A DNA stretch of 64,000 nt, taken from assembly GCF_003586445.1 (NCBI RefSeq), contig NZ_CP030028.1, forward strand, positions 4,486,501-4,550,500, written 5' to 3'. This document shows positions 23,785-30,645 of the stretch, piece by piece; position 1 is the stretch's first letter, and each line of letters opens with the position of its first letter. Source of the DNA: Bacillus sp. Y1. Its GTDB lineage: Bacteria > Bacillota > Bacilli > Bacillales > Cytobacillaceae. The translations under genes and the position numbers were made by a program. Below the pieces are notes generated by a model, which was not told where the DNA came from, searched no databases, and was given only the letters and a program-made list of their open reading frames with translations.

Positions 23785-24213
23785 TTAAGCGTTCGGGTAA
23801 ATCTTTTTCAATGCCGCCTTCATCTCTGGCTTCACCTTAATTTTCGAACGAATTCCTTGAGCCATTTCTTCCGCCTTGTCGATTTCCTTAGCATGCCCTA
23901 ATCCTAACAAGGTACCAATCGCTACTGTACCTGTACGATTGCTGCCCCCACCACAATGGAAATACACTTTCTTGCCTTCGTTATAGGAAGAAATCACTTC
24001 ATTAATGGCCTGTTTTACAGACTCTTCTTGGTGCTCTTCATCATCCACAATTGGCTGATGAATTCGGTTATATTTAGATTCTTCTGTTGGAGCCTCCGCA
24101 CGCAAATCATAGATCACGTCGACTTTCTCATTTTCCATGACCTCTTCCACTTGATCCGCTCCACCGATAAAAATTCGATCCTTGATTAAAGCCTGATAGT
24201 TTTTTTCACTCAT
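23785..24213 (-). CDS. Dual-specificity/tyrosine phosphatase-like protein
   Basis: Cysteine-based phosphatase of 142 residues with an intact HCx5R signature (HCGGGSNRTGT, about residues 86-96) and a plausible general-acid Asp upstream (VDDEEH). Start ATG with AGGAGG 8 bases before. It is the last gene of the arsenic operon, 15 bp after the HesB-like gene. Genes of this type at the end of arsenic operons might act on protein or small-molecule phosphates; a direct part in arsenic chemistry is only an association here. Confidence 0.75.
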   Translation of the reverse strand: MSEKNYQALIKDRIFIGGADQVEEVMENEKVDVIYDLRAEAPTEESKYNRIHQPIVDDEEHQEESVKQAINEVISSYNEGKKVYFHCGGGSNRTGTVAIGTLLGLGHAKEIDKAEEMAQGIRSKIKVKPEMKAALKKIYPNA

Positions 24214-24228
24214 CTGGGTATCCTCCTG

Positions 24229-24507
24229 TTAGCAACAATCGCTTTCGTTTCCAACAAGTACAAAAGCGGTTCGCTCTTCATTAAGTCCTAAAATCAGATC
24301 TCCGATGTGATCCTCAATATGCGGATCGATTGCTACTTGTATCTCATTAATGGTGACTACTTTATCATTTTCTTCCGGCTCATCCAGAGCCAGCCCTACT
24401 TGTGGGCGTCCTCAGCCAAAGCCCGCAAAATAAACGCGGAGACCATTGGCCGCTTGTTCTGCAAATACTTGCTTTAATTGATCACGTGCTTCATTAGTGA
24501 TTTGCAT
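24229..24507 (-). CDS. HesB/IscA-like protein with in-frame UGA (candidate selenoprotein)
   Basis: Read through one UGA, the frame gives 92 residues: MQITNEARDQLKQVF start, RVYFAGFG, UGA as codon 32 (24412-24414), then GRPQVGLALDEPEEND and a VLVGNESDCC end. Family members have Cys, and in known HesB-like selenoproteins Sec, at this place before GGP..GLALDE. Sixty intact codons follow. From 21 nt after the UGA, GGCUC-UGGAU-GAGCC forms a hairpin with G in the second loop position, fitting the bacterial SECIS pattern. The start at 24507 has GAGAGG 9 bases upstream. It is coupled between arsA and the phosphatase gene. Alternative: a recent nonsense mutation. Confidence 0.7.
24374..24388 (-). promoter_or_regulatory. 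SECIS-like hairpin
   Basis: On the minus strand GGCTC-TGGAT-GAGCC, 5 bp perfect stem and 5-nt loop; the loop lies 26-30 nt after the in-frame TGA of the HesB-like gene. A second possible stem (GCCC/GGGC) lies nearer the TGA. Confidence 0.45.
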
Positions 24508-24530: not shown

Positions 24531-26300
24531 TTACTCTACCAATGCTTTTAAGTGTTCGTAACCGGATCGTTCTTCATTCATCAGTGGAACAATGGCACAT
24601 TTAGCAGAAATATCTTCTACCTTTTGAATCCACTGTTCCTCTGCGATGGCTCGTCCCTTTAGCACCGGATCCTTTGTTTCCGTTGCATAAAGACTTTGGT
24701 TAATCACCCACCACTGCGGGACAATCTCTGCTCTTTTCAAATCCTCTTGCAAACGCTGTGCTTCCAATACGGGAGTTGCTTCCGCTAACGTCACGATTAC
24801 AACCGCTGTTTCTTGATCATTTCTTAGTCGTGGCAGAAGCTTTTGAACACTCTCTGGAACTTCTCCCGTTGAACGAGAAAGCTCTTTATGATACGACTGT
24901 GCCGCATCTAATAAAAGCAAAGTATGTCCTGTTGGAGCGGTATCAATCACCACAATTTCGTCCTTCGATCGGTCCACCACTTCAGCAAACGCTCGAAAGA
25001 CAGCAATTTCCTCTGTACAAGGTGAATTTAAATCTTCCTCTAAAAAAGCAAGACCTTGTTCATCCAAGTTTTGGCCAGCAGTTGAAAGCACTTCTTTTTT
25101 ATACATCTCCACCTCATGCTTTGGATCAATTCGGCTAATGGTTAGATCGGGATAGTCTTGATTTTCAAACATTAGCTCCAAATGGGCCGCTGGGTCTGTT
25201 GTGGTTACATGTACTTTATGACCTTTTTCCACTAAGCCCACCGCGATGGCCGATGCAATCGTCGTTTTCCCTACTCCCCCTTTTCCCATCGTTAAAATAA
25301 CCCGGGTTTGTTGAGTAGAAAAATGATTCACTAGTTGTTCTAAGTCAGGAAGTGTGTGTCCTTTTTCAAGCTCTCCCCCTAATGGAACAGGTGGAATCGA
25401 ATAATGCTTCAACAGGTAACGCAAATGCTCTAACCCTGTTAATGAATACGAAACATATGGCAAGGAGTAGATGACCGCTTGCTTAAATTCATCAGGTAAC
25501 TGACTCACTGCGTTTCGTTGCTTTTTATAAAAAGCCGTAGAAATCTTATCATCAGGAAAATACGTTTGGAGGATTCCGTTTATAATTAACGCTTGATTTT
25601 GTATGCCAATTTCTTTTAGTTCCTTTGCTGCTCGATTTGCCTCGTAAAGCGATGATTCATCCGGTCTAGCAACAAGAACGAGCATCGTTTTAGTAGAATC
25701 GGATAATGCTTGAACCGTTTTTGCATATAAATCCTTTTTCTCACCTAATCCAGATAACGGTCCTAAACAAGAGGCACCATGAGTACTTTCCTCTAAAAAG
25801 CCACTCCAAGCTGATGGTAATTGAAGCAACCGAAGCGTGTGTCCAGTTGGAGCCGTATCAAAAATGATATGGTCAAAAACATCTACAATCGCTGGATCGG
25901 CTAAAAGACTCGTAAATTCATCGAATGCCGCTATTTCTACCGTACATGCTCCGGATAATTGCTCTTCCATCGTTGCTATGACGGAATCGGGCAGCACCCC
26001 TCGATACGGTCCAACAACCTTTTCACGATAGGCTTTCGCTGCTTGTTCCGGGTCTAAATTACAAGCAAACAAATTCTTCACCTGTGGAATTTCTGCTGGA
26101 ATATTCGTGAGTTCGAGTTCTAAAACATCCTGAAGATTAGAAGCTGGGTCTGTGCTTACAAGCAGAACCTTCTTTCCTTCATCCGCAAGCGAGACAGCCG
26201 TTGCACAGGCAGTCGATGTTTTCCCTACCCCACCTTTACCTGTAAAGAACAGAAACGGCGTATGAACAGCAGTTTTGGGATCAAATGGTTGAAACATCAC
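24531..26300 (-). CDS. arsA: Arsenical pump-driving ATPase
   Basis: Soluble ATPase of 589 residues that powers the ArsB As(III)/Sb(III) channel. Two homologous halves each hold a P-loop (GKGGVGKTS near residue 21, GKGGVGKTT near 340) and the DTAPTGHTL signal sequence. The three cysteines that bind metalloid in ArsA are present (LSGACTVE, ASCLGPL, SPCTEE). It follows arsD by 17 bp, the usual pairing, and is followed by the HesB-like gene. The start is ATG at 26300 with an AAGGTG site upstream. Confidence 0.95.
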   Translation of the reverse strand: MMFQPFDPKTAVHTPFLFFTGKGGVGKTSTACATAVSLADEGKKVLLVSTDPASNLQDVLELELTNIPAEIPQVKNLFACNLDPEQAAKAYREKVVGPYRGVLPDSVIATMEEQLSGACTVEIAAFDEFTSLLADPAIVDVFDHIIFDTAPTGHTLRLLQLPSAWSGFLEESTHGASCLGPLSGLGEKKDLYAKTVQALSDSTKTMLVLVARPDESSLYEANRAAKELKEIGIQNQALIINGILQTYFPDDKISTAFYKKQRNAVSQLPDEFKQAVIYSLPYVSYSLTGLEHLRYLLKHYSIPPVPLGGELEKGHTLPDLEQLVNHFSTQQTRVILTMGKGGVGKTTIASAIAVGLVEKGHKVHVTTTDPAAHLELMFENQDYPDLTISRIDPKHEVEMYKKEVLSTAGQNLDEQGLAFLEEDLNSPCTEEIAVFRAFAEVVDRSKDEIVVIDTAPTGHTLLLLDAAQSYHKELSRSTGEVPESVQKLLPRLRNDQETAVVIVTLAEATPVLEAQRLQEDLKRAEIVPQWWVINQSLYATETKDPVLKGRAIAEEQWIQKVEDISAKCAIVPLMNEERSGYEHLKALVE

Positions 26301-26317
26301 CTTACACCTTCCATCGG

Positions 26318-26671
26318 TTAAATTAGGTTGATTTTATTCGTAACCTTTTTCTTCTCTAATTCTGTCATTTCGATACCAAACCACTGAGCAAGAGTTTCGT
26401 TTGATGGATAGCTTCCTGATTGACTGATTTCCCCATTAAGTAACGTAATTGGTAGCGAATCCGGACCTTTTTCATGCAAAAATTGGTTCACCTTCGTATT
26501 TTCAGCAAACTTCCCAGGGTCACTCGCTAAGTTATATCTCTTAATATCGAAGCCCTTTTTTTCTAAAATAAACACAGAAGTAGCCATTCTTGTTAACTCA
26601 GGATCGACACTTGGCCCACACACACCAGTTGGACAACAAAGAGCAGGGTCAAAGATTTCAACTTTGGTCAT
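26318..26671 (-). CDS. arsD: Arsenic metallochaperone ArsD
   Basis: Chaperone of 117 residues that hands As(III) to ArsA. Starting at ATG 26671 (8 bases after AAAAGGGAG) places the metalloid-binding cysteines at 12, 13 and 18 (CCPTGVC), identical to the characterised protein; a GTG at 26680 is less likely. The C-terminal vicinal Cys pairs of some ArsD proteins are missing. An operator-like palindrome lies just upstream, after a terminator, so arsDA-hesB-phosphatase may have a separate promoter. Confidence 0.93.
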   Translation of the reverse strand: MTKVEIFDPALCCPTGVCGPSVDPELTRMATSVFILEKKGFDIKRYNLASDPGKFAENTKVNQFLHEKGPDSLPITLLNGEISQSGSYPSNETLAQWFGIEMTELEKKKVTNKINLI

Positions 26672-26693
26672 TTGAGACACTCCCTTTTAATTT

Positions 26694-26759: not shown

Positions 26760-27179
26760 TTATTTACCTGTTTCAGCAAATGTTTTGATTCGATCGCCAA
26801 TTTCATCACGAACACGTTGGAAAAATGCCCATTTTTCTTCTTCTGTTCCCTCTGCTTTAGCCGGATCATCAAAGCCCCAATGCTCACGCTTCACATGTGG
26901 AGGAGTCACTGGGCAATGGTCTGCCGCGTGTCCACATAGAGTGACCACTAAGTCCGCGTTATTTAAGATTTCAGGGTCAATCGTGTCAGATGTTTGATTT
27001 GAAATATCGATTTCAGCTTCTTTCATTGCTTTCACTGCATTAGGGTTCAAACCGTGTGCCTCAAGTCCAGCACTTTTCACATCCCACTCTTCTCCTAAAT
27101 GCTTTTTCGCCCAACCTTCAGCCATTTGGCTTCTGCAAGAATTTCCAGTACATAGAAAGTAGATTGTTTTTTTCGTCAT
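26760..27179 (-). CDS. arsC: Arsenate reductase, thioredoxin-coupled
   Basis: Cytoplasmic reductase of 139 residues converting arsenate to arsenite. Low-molecular-weight phosphatase fold: P-loop Cx5R at 10-16 (CTGNSCR), and the redox Cys82 and Cys89 (LCGHAADHC), the same numbering as pI258 ArsC. Asp in WGFDDPA is the general acid. Third gene of arsR-arsB-arsC, 15 bp after arsB. Confidence 0.95.
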
Positions 27180-27194: not shown

Positions 27195-28493
27195 TTAGTG
27201 AATGATTAGTAACCAAATATAGAGCCCAACCAACGTAATGAATAATGTTGGGATGGTTAGAATGATACCTGTTTTAAAATAAGTACCCCATGAAATTTTG
27301 ACTCCCTTTTGCGATAAAACATGTAGCCATAAAAGAGTCGCAAGCGATCCAATCGGGGTAATTTTCGGCCCAAGGTCCGAACCGATCACATTCGCATAGA
27401 TGAGAGCTTCTCGAATGACTCCCGTTGTATGTGTGTCAGCAATCGCTAACGCATCAATCATAACGGTCGGCATATTGTTCATCACAGACGATAATATCGC
27501 AGCAATAAAGCCCATTCCTACAGTAGCTGCAAACAGTCCTTGATCAGCCGTCACCTGAATCAGGTCTGCTAATAGGTTTGTTAAGCCTACATTTCGCAAA
27601 CCGTATACAACCACATACATCCCAATCGAGAAGAATACAATGGCCCACGGTGCTCCTTTTACAACTGTGCGAGTGTTGACAGCCGGACTTCTTCTGCCCA
27701 TAAAGAGGAAGAAGATCGCAACAATTCCGGCGATAATAGAAACAGGAATCCCTGTAAACTCACTCGCAAAATATCCAATGAGTAGAACTCCTAACACGAG
27801 CCAGGAGAGACGGAACATCTTCTGATCTCGTATGGCATCCACCGGTTGTTTCAGCTGCGTAAGGTCATATGATTTTGGAATACTTTTTCGGAAATAAAGA
27901 TAAAGAACAAGAATGCTCGCTGCTAACGAAAAGAAGTTTGGAACAATCATCCTTGAGGCGAATTCCGCAAAGCCGATGCCAAAAAAGTCAGCAGAAACAA
28001 TATTCACCAGGTTACTAACGACAAGTGGTAACGAAGTGGTGTCAGCGATAAATCCACTAGCGATAATAAATGGAAACACCATACCCTCGTTAAATTGTAA
28101 GTTTCGAACCATCGCAAGGACGATTGGTGTAAGAATCAATGCCGCTCCGTCATTCGCAAAGAATGCGGCAACGATTGCACCTAATATGGAAACATATACA
28201 AACATGAGAACACCGTTTCCTTTTGCGGCACGAGCCATATGGAGGGCCGCCCACTCAAAGAAACCAATTTCATCAAGAATTAAAGAAATGATAATAATGG
28301 CGATAAATGCTAAGGTCGCATTCCAAACAATGCTTGTTACATCAAGAACATCCTTAAAATCCACGACTCCCACAAGCAACGCCAGAATTGCCCCACCACA
28401 AGCGGACCAACCAATCGACAATCCCTTCGGCTGCCAAATAACTAAAACTAGTGTCAGCAAAAAAATCACTGATGCTAAAACAATAGATGTCAC
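27195..28493 (-). CDS. arsB: Arsenite efflux membrane protein ArsB
   Basis: Integral membrane protein of 432 residues with about 12 hydrophobic segments, ArsB/NhaD superfamily ([17 protein letters not shown] and [18 protein letters not shown] motifs). It extrudes As(III)/Sb(III), alone or with ArsA. It belongs to the ArsB family, not Acr3, which has 10 segments. Gap to arsR is 12 bp. Confidence 0.93.
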
Positions 28494-28505: not shown

Positions 28506-28856
28506 TTATTCACAACAAGAAATACGTAAACCTTGTTTTTCTAATTCATCCAATCGATAGCCTTGATCTGGTAAATGTTTAAGAACACCCTGCAAGAATG
28601 GGTAGTACTCACTTTCCTTATTTAAGGAGTAAATAATCCACTGTCCCCTTCTTGATTCCTTTACAATTCCCTTATCCTTTAGCTTTCTTACATGCTGGCT
28701 AATCGCAGGCTGACTGGTTTTAAAAATCTCAACAAACTCACACACACAGCAATCATGGGAATCTAATATTTTCACGATCGTTAATCGTGTTTTGTCTCCT
28801 AATAGCTTTAAGACATTTGCGATTTCTTCGATCTCAATGACAGTTTCTTGTTGCAT
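28506..28856 (-). CDS. arsR: ArsR-family arsenic repressor (first)
   Basis: Winged-helix repressor of 116 residues. The metalloid-sensing segment is DCCVCEFVE (residues 35-43, ELCVCDL-type) at the HTH; HTH core TSQPAISQHVRKLKDKGI. A further Cys pair ends the protein (ISCCE). It heads the operon with GGAGGTG before ATG. The promoter TTGAGC-17-TATTAT upstream overlaps ATAAG/CTTAT half-sites. Confidence 0.93.
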   Translation of the reverse strand: MQQETVIEIEEIANVLKLLGDKTRLTIVKILDSHDCCVCEFVEIFKTSQPAISQHVRKLKDKGIVKESRRGQWIIYSLNKESEYYPFLQGVLKHLPDQGYRLDELEKQGLRISCCE

Positions 28857-29904: not shown

Positions 29905-30645
29905 CTTGTATTCGGACTTGCTCCATCAATTTCTCTATTCTTCTGTCTAAAATCAACCTTGCATTCGGACTCTGTAGTTCTGTTTCCTGGTTCCCTTGTC
30001 CAAATCAACTCTGCTTTCGGACTCTCTTCTTCTTTTTCACGCGACTCCTGTCCGAATCAAAACTGCATTCAGACTCGATCCTTCTTTTTCCCGCGTCCCC
30101 ATGTCCAAATCAACTCTGTTTTCAGACTCGATCCTTCTTTTTCTCGCGACTCCTGTCCGAATCAAAACTGCTTTCAGACTCGATCCTTCTTTTTCCCGCG
30201 TCCCCTGTCCAAATCAACTCTGCTTTCAGACTCGATCCTTCTTTTTCACGCGTCCCCTGTCCAAATCAACTCTGCTTTCAGACTCCATCCTTCTTTTTCA
30301 CGCGTCCCCTGTCCAAATCAACTCTGCTTTCAGACTCCATCCTTCTTTTTCCCGCGACTCCTGTCCGAATCAAAACTGCTTTCAGACTCGATCCTTCTTT
30401 TTCACGCGTCCCCTGTCCAAATCAACTCTGCTTTCAGACTCGATCCTTCTTTTTCACGCGTCCCCATGTCCAAATCAACTCTGTTTTCAGACTCGATCCT
30501 TCTTTTTCACGCGTCCCCTGTCCAAATCAACTCTGCATTCGGACTAGCTCCTCTTTTTTCCTACAACTCCTGTTCGAATCACCCTCGCATTCGGACTTGC
30601 TCCTCCTTTTTCCAGCTTCCCCTGTTCAAATCACCCTCCCCCACC
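29905..30645. repeat. Long hairpin array, 52-bp period, 14 units (GTCCGAAT family)
   Basis: The 740-bp gene-free stretch is one tandem array. The anchor GGACT/AGACT recurs at 29914, 29967, 30019, 30071, 30124, 30176, 30228, 30280, 30332, 30384, 30436, 30489, 30541 and 30593: ten intervals of 52 bp and three of 53. Each unit has arms GTCCGAAT / ATTCGGAC (often decayed to GTCCAAAT / TTTCAGAC) about 10 nt apart, then a pyrimidine-rich stretch (CCTTCTTTTTC). Central units are almost identical. Long open frames cross it in two or three plus frames only because the repeat lacks stops; they are not genes. Confidence 0.9.

Follow-up and report, generated by a model that had tools for sequence, protein, structure and literature searches.

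Does the in-frame TGA in a small HesB-like gene of Bacillus sp. Y1 specify selenocysteine (Sec), or does it mark a very recent nonsense mutation? Both readings had been put forward in an earlier note on the 64,000-nucleotide stretch of DNA analysed here (the window, to whose first letter positions are counted). The predicted HesB/IscA-like selenoprotein gene (hesB) occupies positions 24229..24507 on the minus strand. Reading 24507..24229 on that strand yielded MQITNEARDQLKQVFAEQAANGLRVYFAGFG-U-GRPQVGLALDEPEEND...GNESDCC-stop, that is, the 92-codon frame described in the note, plus a stop codon. Its sole interruption is the TGA at codon 32 (24412..24414, minus strand; predicted Sec), past which 60 open codons follow. 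The sequence GAGAGG, a ribosome binding site, precedes the ATG, and the gaps to the neighbouring genes are as short as had been claimed (23 nt separate the gene from the arsA stop codon, and 15 nt separate it from the phosphatase ATG). In HMMER profile alignments, residue 32 falls on the GGC cysteine of 2apn and 1nwb, corresponding to the first conserved cysteine of IscA/ErpA-type proteins.

The segment past the TGA looks protein-coding, because in comparison with L018, the closest outside strain compared, it carries 14 synonymous and only 1 non-synonymous codon differences. Upstream of the TGA the respective numbers are 4 and 3, and farther relatives are less lopsided (L019, 22 synonymous and 17 non-synonymous differences past the TGA). 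As is required of a selenoprotein gene, the gene is conserved and its in-frame UGA is flanked by homologous sequence on either side. The translation contains no UxxC or CxxU motif. Its last two residues, Cys91 and Cys92, are invariant in a 13-row alignment; a single cysteine precedes the stop in L080, L082, L083-L086 and L133, and the CC end is hence not universal.

The gene belongs to a cluster of arsenic-resistance genes, all of them on the minus strand in the order arsR, arsB, arsC, arsD, arsA, hesB and a dual-specificity phosphatase (DSP) gene. The first gene, read from 28856 to 28506, encodes an arsR-type regulator (28506..28856; PF01022). It is followed by arsB, the arsenical pump membrane protein (27195..28493; PF02040, 771 bits); arsC, an arsC-type arsenate reductase of the LMWPc fold (26760..27179; PF01451), whose same-slot counterparts on two plasmids are annotated as arsenate reductase (thioredoxin); the arsD metallochaperone gene (26318..26680; PF06953, NF033727); and, directly upstream of hesB, arsA, the arsenical pump-driving ATPase (24531..26300; TIGR04291, 851 bits). 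The DSP gene directly downstream of hesB (23785..24213; PF00782) is of the same kind as orf8 of Bacillus sp. CDB3, as described in the consulted part of PMC4562236. The ars1 operon of that strain, arsRYCDATorf7orf8, holds the HesB-like orf7 beside the phosphatase gene orf8 (PMC4562236 and PMC5481582, consulted parts), and according to PMC4562236, which cites Zheng et al. 2013, orf8 made E. coli resistant to arsenate. Compared with CDB3 by description only, the window hesB, which adjoins arsA and a DSP gene where the ars operon ends, occupies an orf7-type position. Elsewhere in the window, a tandem array of about 12 copies of a 52-base unit (29992-30633) is flanked by genes that by eye resemble an additional arsR and a TetR regulator; the long overlapping open reading frames that the array yields in several frames are probably spurious. 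The genome of Bacillus sp. Y1, a soil bacterium, consists of a single contig of 5.03 Mb.

The AlphaFold model of the window protein (mean pLDDT of 86.7; mean of 53 for residues 91-92) predicts an IscA-like fold, with the IscA structures 1s98_A, 1r94_A and 1x0g_C as Foldseek matches (TMq of 0.75, 0.70 and 0.67, respectively; probability of 1.00 each). The nearest NCBIfam models are HesB_rel_seleno (TIGR01911; 55.1 bits, cut-off 66.35) and, second-best, IscA_HesB_Se (NF038090; 47.6 bits, cut-off 85). Neither cut-off was reached, nor was the gathering threshold of the IscA/HesB family Fe-S_biosyn (PF01521; 24 bits against 26.3, E value of 4.8e-05). With the HesB-like selenoproteins of TIGR01911 the window protein shares an IscA/HesB-like domain and one predicted Sec; it differs from them by its score below the cut-off, its CC C-terminus, its location in an ars cluster and its occurrence in Bacillales. 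At the Sec the window protein reads UGRP and relatives carry UGKP, UGQP or UGGP; the motif of the TIGR01911 family is given as UxGP in the consulted part of PMC13188914.

The search of the Bacillus sp. Y1 genome that the earlier note had proposed, for selA, selB, selD and tRNA-Sec, found all four. The profile scores were 560.4 bits for selA (cut-off 267.9), 382.7 bits for selB (cut-off 242.25) and 402 bits for selD (cut-off 125), and the tRNA-Sec (58.9 bits; gathering threshold 47) has the anticodon UCA. The selD gene carries an in-frame TGA of its own at AGUGCK (L066, G000:C1:2744310-2745236), which we take to be the catalytic Sec/Cys site of SelD, and because of this TGA, SelD itself is likely a selenoprotein. 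Plain ORF calling starts selD downstream of the TGA. The UGA genes found in the genome in a non-exhaustive look are hesB and selD; formate dehydrogenase did not emerge as a further Sec client, as the five Fdh-alpha-like matches in the Y1 genome all score below the family cut-off and contain no internal stop.

Codon 32 was followed through 20 named homologues obtained from a scan of GTDB species genomes (55-97% identity), the closest of which are those of Robertmurraya korlensis (95-97% protein identity). It is TGA in 19 of the 20 and TAA in the remaining one, and tRNA-Sec scored over the cut-off in all 19 genomes of the set that were searchable (the L023 genome lay outside the search). The TAA copy, from Bacillus sp. 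V3-13 (L024:5094-5096), has an intact hairpin and a genome with a UCA tRNA-Sec, and the arsD and arsA matches next to it are only fragments. UAA as a Sec codon in this strain was considered and rejected, the sole tRNA-Sec match (L046) having the anticodon UCA. Because of this anticodon and the arsD and arsA fragments, decay is the simpler reading, and L024 is probably a decaying copy.

At 16 of the 20 named loci, arsA, arsB, arsC or arsD lies alongside; among the other four, L033 shows the phosphatase gene only, L023 a distant ArsR match only, and L030 and L036 neither. The same genes accompany 14 loci in a further set of 29 with TGA, read with ~1.5 kb flanks, and 5 loci in a more distant TGA set of 20, read with ~4 kb flanks; a few of all these further loci repeat genomes of the named set. 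Judged by this gene context, the close relatives form for the most part an ars-operon group within a wider Bacillales family of Sec-HesB proteins. Since not all relatives are found in ars clusters, the basic chemistry of the protein need not concern arsenic. At five loci viewed by eye (three named ones without arsA/B/C/D and two more distant), no neighbour that would explain the function was seen. Several genomes, including G386, G338, G326, G346 and G134, hold two or three TGA-bearing HesB-like copies. A tblastn search located relatives in 20 plasmid records, two of which were read. Plasmid p1 of Cytobacillus firmus (L141) carries arsR-arsB-arsC-arsD-arsA-trxB-DSP and then a UGA-containing hesB, which has no gene entry in the (incomplete) annotation table; on a Priestia megaterium plasmid (L142), the ars-operon Cys form is annotated as 'adhesin'.

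Downstream of the UGA, the window contains a bacterial SECIS-like hairpin, CUGGCUC-UGGAU-GAGCCGG (24375..24393, minus strand), recognized by its folding stability, covariation and codon conservation. As the note had stated, its loop lies 26-30 nt past the TGA and has a G as second base (CTGGCTC-TGGAT-GAGCCGG in the DNA). The window hairpin exceeds chance, because only ~0.7% of 2000 synonymous-codon resamplings of its region were equally stable. When the resampling was extended to other genes at p<0.05, with the codon usage of the window applied to all genomes, 48 of 69 TGA genes had an extra-stable hairpin region and 21 fell short, compared with 0 of 20 Cys genes; the 69, like the locus counts, include repeats, as some named and unnamed loci represent the same genome (e.g. 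L030 and L069). The hairpin therefore accompanies the UGA and not simply the protein sequence. The TAA gene of L024 also passes this stability test (>95% of samples).

Among 57 distinct segments, the loop UGGA is invariant and the LALDE codons past the UGA are nearly frozen, with CTG at codon +9 in 57/57, GCT as the Ala codon at +8 in 51/52 and GAG as the Glu codon at +11 in 56/56. Variants of the stem often covary: C-G is replaced by U-A at the base and G-C by U-G halfway up the stem, and L130 even has G-C in place of a stem U-A pair despite the cost of a Glu to Ala substitution. In these segments 95.7% of cells are paired, versus 19-47% when the partner is slid, and the covariation score was matched by 0 of 500 shuffles, which leave kinship in and address a structure derived from these same sequences. 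A slide of +2 beats the true structure on two of the five measures, namely pairs changed on both sides (4 versus 3) and further pair types (8 versus 7). An Rfam search of the window gave no family match, which is not evidence against a SECIS element because a fitting model may be absent from Rfam.

Across the order, 179 of 397 genomes match the family profile at E<=1e-10. Among the matches listed, 91 genomes, that of Bacillus sp. Y1 included, have a TGA copy, and selA is present in 90 of them; of the 40 genomes with stop-free copies only, 3 have selA (G028, G145 and G413). The genomes behind both figures are related by kinship and not independent. In total, selA occurs in 181 of the 397 genomes. 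Because 90 of these have a TGA copy among the matches listed, hesB is a frequent reason for keeping the Sec system, though other reasons are possible as well. In a direct test of 48 genomes, 28 had TGA copies that were read, and 26 of these 28 gave a tRNA-Sec above the cut-off; G051 is counted among the 28 as it holds both TGA and Cys copies. By comparison, 1 of 19 read Cys-only genomes gave one, or 2 of 20 once G028, read as Cys later than the test, is added; the genomes of this Cys set have no TGA copy among the matches listed, and two of them (G349 and G287), in which tRNA-Sec-like matches narrowly miss the cut-off at 45.5 bits, were counted as without. The two misses among the TGA genomes are G051, in which selA is present, and G404, in which it was not found. 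In G404 (L123/L143) a UGA hesB follows arsB-arsC, and neither selA nor tRNA-Sec was found in the genome; this copy is a relic or an acquired operon.

Stop-free copies were taken as Cys only at the 28 loci that were fetched, 27 of which have Cys at the site, one Glu and none Trp. The first 20 of these loci all have Cys, and 16 of them lie beside arsA/B/C/D, often in the arrangement arsA-DSP-hesB; the Cys forms share the operon slot of the Sec forms. The Glu-containing relative (L147 in G340) is found in an ars cluster and lacks the C-terminal CC. A tree of 86 distinct proteins from 90 genes, based on few columns and including some long branches, places at least three Sec/Cys changes on well-supported branches. 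The homologues, with TGA retained in all but one of the named set and Cys in all but one of the stop-free loci read, display the UGA/Cys alternation that the note had proposed to look for.

In IscA, three cysteines (35, 99 and 101) hold iron or a cluster, and the C-terminal motif is CXC; ArsD and ArsA bind As(III) through thiols. Against this background, we infer the following for the insertion of Sec in the cell, the co-transcription of the genes, and the ligand and function of the protein. The HesB-like protein would be made from a co-transcribed arsRBCDA-hesB-DSP gene cluster, in which the hairpin 26-30 nt downstream would direct the Sec reading of the UGA, and SelB together with tRNA-Sec would read codon 32 as selenocysteine. 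Sec32 would replace the first IscA-type ligand cysteine, and the C-terminal pair Cys91-Cys92 could join it. The resulting Se/S/S site may bind As(III), which is soft and seeks three-coordinate ligation, or else an Fe-S or Fe centre that arsenic would damage. The protein would accordingly be either a partner of ArsD/ArsA that chaperones or scavenges the metalloid, or a carrier for repair. We favour metalloid or cluster handling at the Sec-Cys-Cys site because the IscA cysteines hold iron or a cluster and three soft ligands including Se also suit As(III). Direct binding of As(III) as the function is a tentative proposal, to which we give somewhat less than an even chance. The most specific version, in which Sec32, Cys91 and Cys92 hold As(III) and the protein, tuned by Se, serves the ArsD/ArsA pump as chaperone or scavenger, helps to keep Sec decoding and spreads with plasmid-borne ars operons in Bacillales, is rather unlikely to hold as a whole.

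A different account sees the protein as an IscA/ErpA-type carrier that serves Fe-S assembly or repair in general and was recruited by the ars operon because arsenite damages Fe-S proteins; Sec would tune redox behaviour or cluster transfer, and As(III) would not be bound directly. Its fold and sequence are indeed nearest to IscA/ErpA/SufA-type proteins, and Sec copies exist away from ars genes too. However, the C-terminal CXC of IscA is CC in the window protein, and ars genes adjoin 16 of the 20 named homologues, so that we consider a carrier of this kind possible rather than probable. A role as thiol/selenol oxidoreductase, in which Sec-Cys cycling via thioredoxin reductase would supply electrons to ArsC or detoxify peroxide, appears improbable. 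The trxB gene that separates arsA from the phosphatase gene on the Cytobacillus firmus plasmid (L141), where it lies upstream of the Sec-hesB, would suit such a role, as would the expectation, expressed in the consulted part of a review (PMC13188914), that most uncharacterized selenoproteins are redox proteins; the lack of a UxxC/CxxU motif, the predicted IscA-like fold and the thioredoxin-type ArsC already present in the operon argue against it.

The two remaining alternatives dispense with selenocysteine. According to the first, hesB is a pseudogene, a Cys form that recently gained a nonsense TGA. Decay does occur in the HesB family, since L024 combines TAA at the same codon with fragmentary arsD and arsA matches, and G404 holds a TGA copy with selA and tRNA-Sec not found. 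For the window gene, however, this reading is contradicted by a TGA retained in 19 of 20 named homologues spanning 55-97% identity and by a hairpin that is frozen and covarying; selection on the codons past the TGA (versus L018) and the presence of selA in 90 of 91 TGA-copy genomes among the matches listed also speak against it, making it very improbable. Reading of the UGA as tryptophan, or low-level read-through, can be set aside almost entirely, since the W at this site in seventeen database proteins (P0002-P0018) looks like an artefact of short contigs on which genes were called with TGA as Trp, while the genome has SelB and tRNA-Sec, the gene has a SECIS-like element and the stop-free relatives have Cys (27/28) or Glu (1/28) and never Trp.

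Taken together, the Sec machinery, the conservation of the UGA, the covarying hairpin, the co-occurrence with selA and the Cys forms in the same slot argue for a selenoprotein and against a nonsense mutation. Sequence analysis supports the gene, the conservation of its UGA, the SECIS covariation, the Sec machinery, the ars context and the Sec/Cys exchange, and we hold with high confidence that hesB at 24507-24229 encodes a selenoprotein. The Sec-insertion reading of the earlier note is supported by the machinery in the genome and by the UGA and hairpin shared with relatives; neither a genome devoid of Sec machinery nor close relatives with plain Cys and no conserved UGA, the two observations named there as refuting it, was encountered.

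The literature lists HesB-like selenoproteins as a family (PMC13188914 and PMC9312934, consulted parts), and one of unclear function in Methanococcus maripaludis was identified by mutagenesis and 75Se labelling (PMC11097638, consulted part). Two database entries (P0017 and P0025) already bear the name 'HesB-like selenoprotein'. In the orf7 paper (PMC4562236), the string 'seleno' occurs 0 times; the stop-free relatives that were read at this operon position all carry Cys except for one with Glu, orf7 itself being compared by description only. Metalloid-linked selenoproteins named in the consulted part of PMC13188914 are arsenite methyltransferase, arsenate reductase, SaoB/SaoC and UXX-star. The window protein resembles them in combining Sec with arsenic or heavy-metal handling, but they belong to other protein families, and the HesB-like family is given no arsenic link in that part of the review. 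A search of the open-access literature, mostly at the level of title listings, found no paper joining HesB, Sec and ars. Within the literature so covered, HesB-like selenoproteins and a HesB-like ars gene are each known, and their union in one gene is the new part.

A gene of this kind is readily overlooked or wrongly named: of the 27 proteins found in the database, 10 consist of a tail of 52-56 residues only, and the Cys form on the Priestia plasmid bears its 'adhesin' label. The ars-operon HesB would join the known uses of selenocysteine, in Bacillales, and tie selenium use to arsenic defence. The many natural Sec/Cys pairs that occupy one operon slot would also make the advantage of selenium over sulfur directly testable under arsenite selection.
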